Positions 10,226 through 10,341 of a stretch of 25,140 bases of DNA are shown here, piece by piece. Every line of letters starts with the position of its first letter. Positions within the stretch are counted from its first letter, which is position 1. The DNA lies in IMG/VR virus record IMGVR_UViG_3300037189_026880, positions 1 to 25,140 of that record. The stretch is one strand, 5' to 3'. The DNA is from a virus. Below the pieces are notes generated by a model. It had not been told where the DNA came from and ran no database searches. It was given only the letters and a program-made list of their open reading frames with translations. The position numbers and the translations under genes are program-made.

Positions 10226-10341
10226 AATAGGCATTTTAATCCGCTCCGATAATCCTAGAGCTTAACCACCAATAAAGGCGGTTGAAGGACTCTAACCTTC
10301 CCCTGATGCTCCCAATGCAAAATTTTTGCTGTTAGCCTATT
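10226..10341 (-). ncRNA. YrlA-type Y RNA with circularly permuted tRNA-like domain
   Basis: The outer stem is AATAGGC (10335-10341) with GCCTATT (10226-10232). The 5' strand then bulges out UAACAGCAAAA before an AUUUU/AAAAU helix. Inside lie, in order, a T-arm (10284-10300: GAAGG, TTAGAGT, CCTTC), a capped acceptor-like hairpin (10277-10283 with 10264-10270, 7 bp with one G-T, loop TTTATT), two unpaired As, and a D-arm (10243-10261: GCTC/GAGC, loop with GG). This is a tRNA elbow opened at the anticodon side and closed at the acceptor end, the arrangement I recall for YrlA Y RNAs. The T-loop has A in place of the usual C56. Confidence 0.7.

Follow-up and report, generated by a model that had tools for sequence, protein, structure and literature searches.

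The viral DNA analysed here (the window, 25,140 nucleotides, positions 1 to 25,140 of IMG/VR virus record IMGVR_UViG_3300037189_026880) very likely encodes a Y RNA that partners a phage Ro60 made from the very next gene and that would act on this protein as both a gate and a tether with a tRNA-like face. Y RNAs that mimic a circularly permuted tRNA are already known; what is new here is a form in which the tRNA elbow is altered. The locus links one specific phage RNA with one specific phage Ro60, and RNAs of this form raise the question of whether a tRNA mimic can do without the tRNA elbow.

The features of the locus are collected in Table 1. Read from 10341→10226, the RNA consists of AATAGGC, TAACAGCAA, a linker, the T-arm, the capped hairpin, AA, the D-arm, GGATTAAAAT and GCCTATT, its 5' and 3' ends pairing over 7 bp. 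An earlier interpretation made from the letters alone (the sequence-only reading) had recognized the T-arm, the 7-bp capped hairpin, AA and the D-arm without naming a strand; all four lie where it had placed them, on the minus strand. The "bulged helix" that it drew at the open ends turns out to be a stem of 7 bp, after which comes an unpaired segment that includes ACAGCAA. Since the acceptor is closed by a cap, the structure predicts that the RNA should not be chargeable.

Table 1. Features of the Y RNA and Ro60 locus (window coordinates) and of tRNA-order hybrids in other phage loci (coordinates within each locus).
Feature	Position	Strand	Basis or remark
Y RNA with permuted tRNA-like module	10226..10341	(-)	Fold, covariance-model match, homolog L366
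Closing (Ro-type) stem, 5' strand AATAGGC	10335..10341	(-)	Fold; closing stems of relatives
TAACAGCAA, conserved single-stranded motif adjoining closing stem, candidate Ro60 contact	10326..10334	(-)	
T-arm GAAGG-TTAGAGT-CCTTC, position 56 = A	10284..10300	(-)	
Acceptor-like 7-bp hairpin AACCGCC-TTTATT-GGTGGTT, cap TTTATT	10264..10283	(-)	Compensation in L366
AA, positions 8-9	10263-10262	(-)	
D-arm GCTC-TAGGATTATCG-GAGC	10261-10243	(-)	
Closing stem, 3' strand GCCTATT	10226..10232	(-)	MFE fold
Second Ro-type hairpin GAGGGGC-TAACAGCAA...GCCCCTC, without tRNA module	10166..10216	(-)	
Promoter-like TTGACA-17-TATCAT upstream of Y RNA	10377..10405	(-)	11 of 12 matches
Phage Ro60 gene, 461 aa	8764..10149	(-)	Pfam DUF2828 + DUF7788; PHROG 850 RNA-binding protein
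tRNA-order hybrids	L011 3364-3478; L014 3039-3151 and 3169-3282; L016 3351-3460		

The minimum free energy fold of the minus strand reproduces exactly these helices (-33.0 kcal/mol, z -2.06, with 6 of 200 shuffles as good), and the permuted module folded alone does somewhat better (z -2.64, 2 of 200 shuffles as good). Folding energy by itself is modest evidence for the element. A descriptor of the T-arm, hairpin and D-arm gave the window a score that was matched in 1 of 40 whole-window shuffles. As energy and descriptor are weak alone, independent tests were sought. Two structural proposals were discarded: a plus-strand reading, because the 10200-10360 (+) fold is weaker (z -1.21) and the tRNA order exists on the minus strand only, and, as a common feature, a second helix past ACAGCAA, which reaches at least 5 bp in 23 of 66 relatives against a shuffle mean of 17.8 and a maximum of 27. 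ARAGORN called zero tRNA genes in the window, and Rfam gave no tRNA there at its gathering cut-off.

Comparison with a homolog provided one such test. We scanned for the unusual T-loop of the window RNA with AAGCTC after it and obtained 9 contigs; in seven of them the hairpin does not form. The scan also led to a second record of the window phage (L368/L240, IMGVR_UViG_3300032335_001346, 38,425 bases; L240, from the same contig as L368, is 100% identical to the window over 199 nt of the RNA region) and to an independent homolog, L366, on another contig of 140,400 bases. The closing stem, TAACAGCAA, T-arm and D-stem of L366 are identical to those of the window. Its acceptor reads AACCCGC/GCGGGTT against AACCGCC/GGTGGTT in the window, that is, it carries two compensatory double changes (G-U to C-G and C-G to G-C); its cap is shorter, and its D-loop, TAGAATCATCG, has GA where the window has GG. 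The sequence-only reading had put itself at risk on hairpins broken without compensation in homologous sequences, and no such break occurs in L366, the one homolog found. The two phages resemble each other closely between the start of the RNA and the Ro60 initiation codon but little upstream of the RNA, and L366 keeps both RNA elements (the Y RNA and the second hairpin) ahead of a Ro60 start. At L366 3405-3623 the match to the Ro60 gene extends through codon 25 (75 nt), after which other sequence follows, a break that is either real or an assembly junction.

A covariance search with a YrlA model, which the sequence-only reading had proposed as a check, gave nothing: RF02553 has no match up to E 10 in 10150-10550, and its one match over the whole record (10.7 bits, against a gathering cut-off of 69 bits) lies elsewhere, at 8634-8650. 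As an identity test for the window RNA Rfam was therefore set aside, having given no useful match. None of the 19 records searched passed the RF02553 cut-off, which is thus narrow for phage RNAs. We built a covariance model, R1, from 23 modules, excluding that of the window and dropping that of L006, whose D-arm had been misaligned by MAFFT. With filters off, the best R1 match over the window spans 10307→10236(-) at 24.3 bits (E 4.9e-7, rough calibration), and L366 scores 24.1 bits. Every R1 match up to E 1 in 93 other loci lies on the gene strand; many of these matches are ordinary tandem tRNA genes, which score too. The pair counts of the R1 alignment (96.4% paired; covariation 0.81, against 0.20 after shuffling) carry a bias in the acceptor helix and provide no independent evidence, because 18 of the 23 rows came from a pattern that requires acceptor pairing of at least 6/7 and fixed T- and D-loop letters.

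The permuted module recurs in other phages. An initial descriptor search near phage Ro60 genes detected it in Mycobacterium phages Samty (L007) and Silverleaf (L018), in Felix O1 (L006), Citrobacter phage Ci1 (L011) and Sinorhizobium phage phiN3 (L015), and in an IMG/VR contig (L059); a pattern scan of IMG/VR added further permuted modules. An unselected census used the pattern TAACAGCAA + 25-55 nt + GGTTNGANNCC + 14-34 nt + GCTC, which leaves position 56 and the closing stem free; U54, U55, G57 and A58 are fixed by the search patterns and hence unusable as census evidence. Matches were found in 55 contigs, 42 of which hold a permuted module, with 34 modules being distinct. A closing stem of at least 6 bp ends exactly at TAACAGCAA in 32 of the 34, as compared with 22% (at most 47%) when partners were swapped among RNAs. 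Of the 42 permuted modules, 15 have a Ro60 gene in the DNA retrieved around them, many of the loci being short.

The census also bears on the elbow. The numbering and roles of tRNA positions 8-9, 18-19 and 56 are those of the textbooks. All 32 other distinct permuted modules have C at position 56, and in 31 of them the D-loop opens with A and has GG where it is usually found; UA occupies positions 8-9 in 38 of 42 permuted modules, and two of the exceptions have the look of a register shift in the hairpin search. A56 is confined to the window phage and L366, as are AA at positions 8-9, a D-loop that begins with U and a GG that is shifted or absent. The window RNA departs from the elbow nucleotides U8, G18-G19 and C56 (having AA at 8-9, a shifted GG and A56); its T-loop, UUAGAGU, has U54 and U55. 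The sequence-only reading had pointed to the loss of C56 from TTAGAGT. Not only does this remark hold against the 32 other modules but, since several tertiary positions differ jointly in both phages, it extends further. Several elbow positions changed together, and in two phages the changes have persisted with the arms intact, which places the window RNA in a small group of tRNA-mimicking Y RNAs that lack the usual elbow contact. An A56-U pair with the A/U-rich D-loop is our guess at a replacement contact, and recognition by tRNA enzymes may have been lost along with the altered nucleotides.

The next feature downstream of the Y RNA, on the same strand, is the Ro60 gene (10149→8764), with which the RNA would be co-transcribed. 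The Pfam matches of the protein are DUF7788 and DUF2828 only, with none to TROVE or to the Ro60 vWA family; a PDB sequence search with the protein alone returned nothing, and a profile search brought up TROVE at E 0.07 only. Among the 43 members of its alignment, TROVE is absent from the Pfam families found up to E 1 and vWA_Ro60 gives weak matches in 3. By tblastn, 681 of 50,697 phage records contain relatives; the annotation of some reads "Ro-like RNA binding protein". AlphaFold2 performed poorly from the single sequence (pLDDT 39.6); this model was superseded by one made from the alignment of 43 window and IMG/VR sequences (pLDDT 89.5). The predicted structure combines a HEAT-repeat ring with a vWA fold. 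Its best Foldseek match is the Ro autoantigen (E 1.7e-7), and it aligns with the Ro autoantigen (1yvp) at Z 22.5 across 402 residues, with the Ro60 of Thermus phage phiLo (PDB 9l5y, 9kop) at Z 16.3-17.1 and with Deinococcus Rsr at Z 12.3; single vWA domains score below all these Ro60 structures (Z about 11). A MIDAS motif, DxSxS, is present, with D273, S275 and S277 invariant in 43 of 43 sequences. Judged by its predicted fold, and not by the Pfam TROVE model, the window protein is a Ro60.

The motif adjoining the closing stem recurs beside phage Ro60 genes. We scanned 98 phage Ro60 loci for stems of at least 6 bp lying 0-3 nt before [ACT]CAGCAA with the partner strand downstream, and found 90 on the gene strand (a few inside the Ro60 gene) versus 4 on the reverse strand. 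For strict ACAGCAA the figures are 57 (Ro60 gene excluded) versus 2, and 35 of the 98 loci have at least one. Tandem motif stems are found in Listeria LP-064 (three), Staphylococcus 6ec (three), Felix O1 (four) and Samty (three), and in many phages such stems come after the Ro60 gene or are located amid tRNA genes (L006, L007, L009, L037). ACAGCAA beside a stem is a short, testable candidate docking motif that recurs in phages of many hosts, and a simple search for it can find RNA partners of Ro60 where Rfam sees none. Separately, we noticed long RNAs of about 155-230 nt that have the same Ro-type stem and motif with a different module (L037 3254-3436, L042 3258-3440, L049 3637-3806, L071 2968-3194, L061 964-1120, L079 980-1135, L090 981-1145, L091 985-1148, L051 349-573); they share pieces such as AAAGAGAGATAT or CTGGAGC...TTGAAGG, and Rfam reports only tRNAs in these loci.

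The window itself has a second ACAGCAA hairpin, whose 3' end is 16 nt upstream of the Ro60 ATG (-13.6 kcal/mol, z -2.13) and which is kept, with a changed loop, in L366. It could be either a second Y RNA without a module or a feedback site; the latter is possible since the hairpin, if bound, would cover the ribosome site. Feedback cannot be the general role of such hairpins because elsewhere they follow the Ro60 gene or lie among tRNA genes. No terminator-like site was found between the two RNA elements and the Ro60 gene. The promoter-like site upstream of the Y RNA was discarded as evidence, being the best of 13 in a region where about 12 are expected in shuffles, and not conserved in L366.

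How might the RNA and the protein work together? One could envision, by analogy with YrlA, that the closing stem binds the outer surface of the Ro60 ring together with the single-stranded ACAGCAA, leaving the remainder, the top half of a permuted tRNA with a capped acceptor, to present a tRNA-like surface. Most likely, the Y RNA would act as a gate by covering the RNA-binding face of Ro60. By analogy, the module would act as a tether that brings a tRNA-recognizing or RNA-degrading host protein to the ring, PNPase being that protein in the known bacterial case. The phage Ro60 might in this way handle structured or damaged RNA, tRNA included, during infection.

Rather than a Y RNA, the two ACAGCAA hairpins could form a cis-acting leader at which Ro60 represses its own translation, with the module stabilizing the leader or offering a processing site. 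The arrangement lends itself to this scheme, both elements being in the sense orientation between the promoter-like site and the Ro60 start, with the second hairpin close to the ATG, no intervening terminator-like site and both elements conserved in L366. However, motif stems in other phages that follow the Ro60 gene or sit among tRNA genes are not leaders, and a tRNA module with compensated pairs exceeds the needs of a binding site. We consider this alternative rather unlikely, and a double role, as Y RNA and leader, possible.

It is highly unlikely that the module is a decoy that sequesters host anticodon nucleases, other tRNA nucleases or tRNA-processing enzymes, Ro60 serving only to stabilize it: the module has no anticodon arm, and the window clade has lost the elbow nucleotides that tRNA enzymes usually read. 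This idea draws on the frequent proximity of phage Ro60 loci to tRNA genes (in one case to RtcB) and on the inhibitor role suggested for YrlA in PMC7790460. Finally, the T-arm and D-arm might be remnants of two old tRNA genes, juxtaposed by chance or decay. One shuffle in 40 does reach the descriptor score and tandem tRNA genes score on R1 too, but the covariation of the middle hairpin in L366, the recurrence of the closing stem with ACAGCAA and the lack of any ARAGORN tRNA in the window reduce the probability of this account to almost nil. The preferred reading remains that of a Y RNA made to partner the adjoining Ro60.

The Ro-type stem and motif are also found in a second relationship to tRNA. 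Through Rfam matches we came across complete tRNAs of phages, their parts in normal order, whose anticodon loop holds a long insert (Table 1), the insert comprising a stem-loop followed by AGCAA (L011) or CUGCAA. The same insert would result if the permuted RNA had its capped acceptor opened and its docking stem closed. In IMG/VR the tRNA-order pattern, with C(A/U)GCAA as the motif after the stem-loop, has 125 matches in 118 contigs (loci L242-L359); the acceptor is at least 6 bp long in 102 of the 125, a stem of at least 5 bp lies just before the motif in 109, and both hold in 94. Shuffling the inserts leaves a stem just before the motif in 41, versus the 109 observed. A Ro60 gene is present in 58 of the 118 tRNA-order loci versus 3 of 100 loci with other tRNA-type matches. 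We found no description of these hybrids in the literature searched; Chen 2014, Sim and Wolin 2018 and Sim 2020 lie outside it, and we do not claim the hybrids as unpublished. They hint at a route from a tRNA to a permuted mimic and are natural material for testing the action of Ro60 on tRNA during infection. It is tempting to speculate, and we lean towards this view, that phage Ro60 particles draw on a modular RNA repertoire built from one docking hairpin (stem plus CAGCAA) and a tRNA, combined in either circular order: with the acceptor sealed and the tRNA cut at the anticodon loop, or with the acceptor open and the hairpin inserted at that loop. The window clade would then represent a further step, in which the elbow contact is replaced (A56, A8, no canonical D-loop GG) and the arms are kept by compensation.

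Other features of the window are recorded here as separate observations. Just after the Ro60 gene, at 8624-8752 (-), lies a normal-order tRNA-like element with a 10-bp acceptor (GCTAGTGTTG/CAACACTAGC), a canonical T-arm (GCAGG-TTCGAAT-CCTGC), a class-II-like D-arm, a 9-nt anticodon-type loop and an insert of about 49 nt; it is called by neither ARAGORN nor Rfam, and R1 gives its T-arm region 19.7 bits. The adjacent 8340-8622 (-) is a non-coding stretch of about 280 nt whose hairpin loops carry complementary AAGCGG and CCGCTT; as a candidate structured RNA (8622-8340) it was rejected, its fold being no better than shuffles (z -1.20). At 7649-7942 (-) there is a 97-aa open frame, for the most part a glycine repeat interrupted by H, N, D, Y and S.

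Comparison with YrlA of Salmonella and other bacteria reveals both kinship and divergence. The two RNAs have in common a basal Ro-type stem, a T-arm, a capped acceptor and a D-arm in permuted order, paired ends and an adjoining Ro60 gene. The sequence-only reading had likened the element to YrlA-type Y RNAs; architecture and Ro60 context support that assignment, whereas the Rfam model RF02553 does not, so membership stands by architecture and context and not by that model. Unlike YrlA, the window RNA has A for C56, AA for UA at positions 8-9 and no canonical D-loop GG, and its partner protein is a Ro60 of the DUF2828/DUF7788 type. The window RNA shares its circular permutation with a bacterial Y RNA, for which this departure from tRNA order has been described (PDB 6CU1; PMC11472068). 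According to PMC8394870, the basal stem of YrlA holds Rsr and its tRNA-like domain binds PNPase; DusA and TruB act on YrlA as a substrate (PMC8394870 and PMC4726728).

The proposed mechanism is modelled on the Deinococcus RYPER machine (Rsr / Y RNA / PNPase), in which Y RNA ties the Ro60 ring to a ring-shaped exonuclease; in the window system, binding of PNPase or another effector would follow by analogy only. The Ro60 of Thermus phage phiLo has the fold predicted for the window protein but differs from it in sequence (about 16% identity) and in family: it goes under the name TROVE, in contrast to the DUF2828/DUF7788 matches of the window protein.

In Listeria phage cka15, very abundant RNAs have been proposed as possible Y RNAs (PMC12282133). 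Equating the window element with these RNAs, CKA15_059-061, was rejected, as they are without the motif; the motif stems are at 25553-25289 of OR088597.1. In the regions of this phage record considered (L241; 25289-25553 and 26388-26698), the Ro60 gene CKA15_055 is immediately preceded by three motif stems, and Table 1 of the same paper places CKA15_055 among the proteins of purified cka15 particles. A jumbo-phage survey mentions a Ro/TROVE protein with a tRNA-like partner (PMC7824862). A further comparison is with the mycobacteriophages, whose Y RNAs beside Ro-like proteins were described by Chen et al. (2014, RNA 20:1715), as cited in PMC12282133. These phages have a Ro60 and a nearby RNA with the permuted module, plainly so in Samty (L007 3023-3150) and Silverleaf (L018). 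Their RNAs differ from that of the window in having TTCGA T-loops and in scoring 38-40 bits on RF02553. Samty and the window differ also in the number of module-less stems in tandem with the module-bearing one, two in Samty and one in the window.
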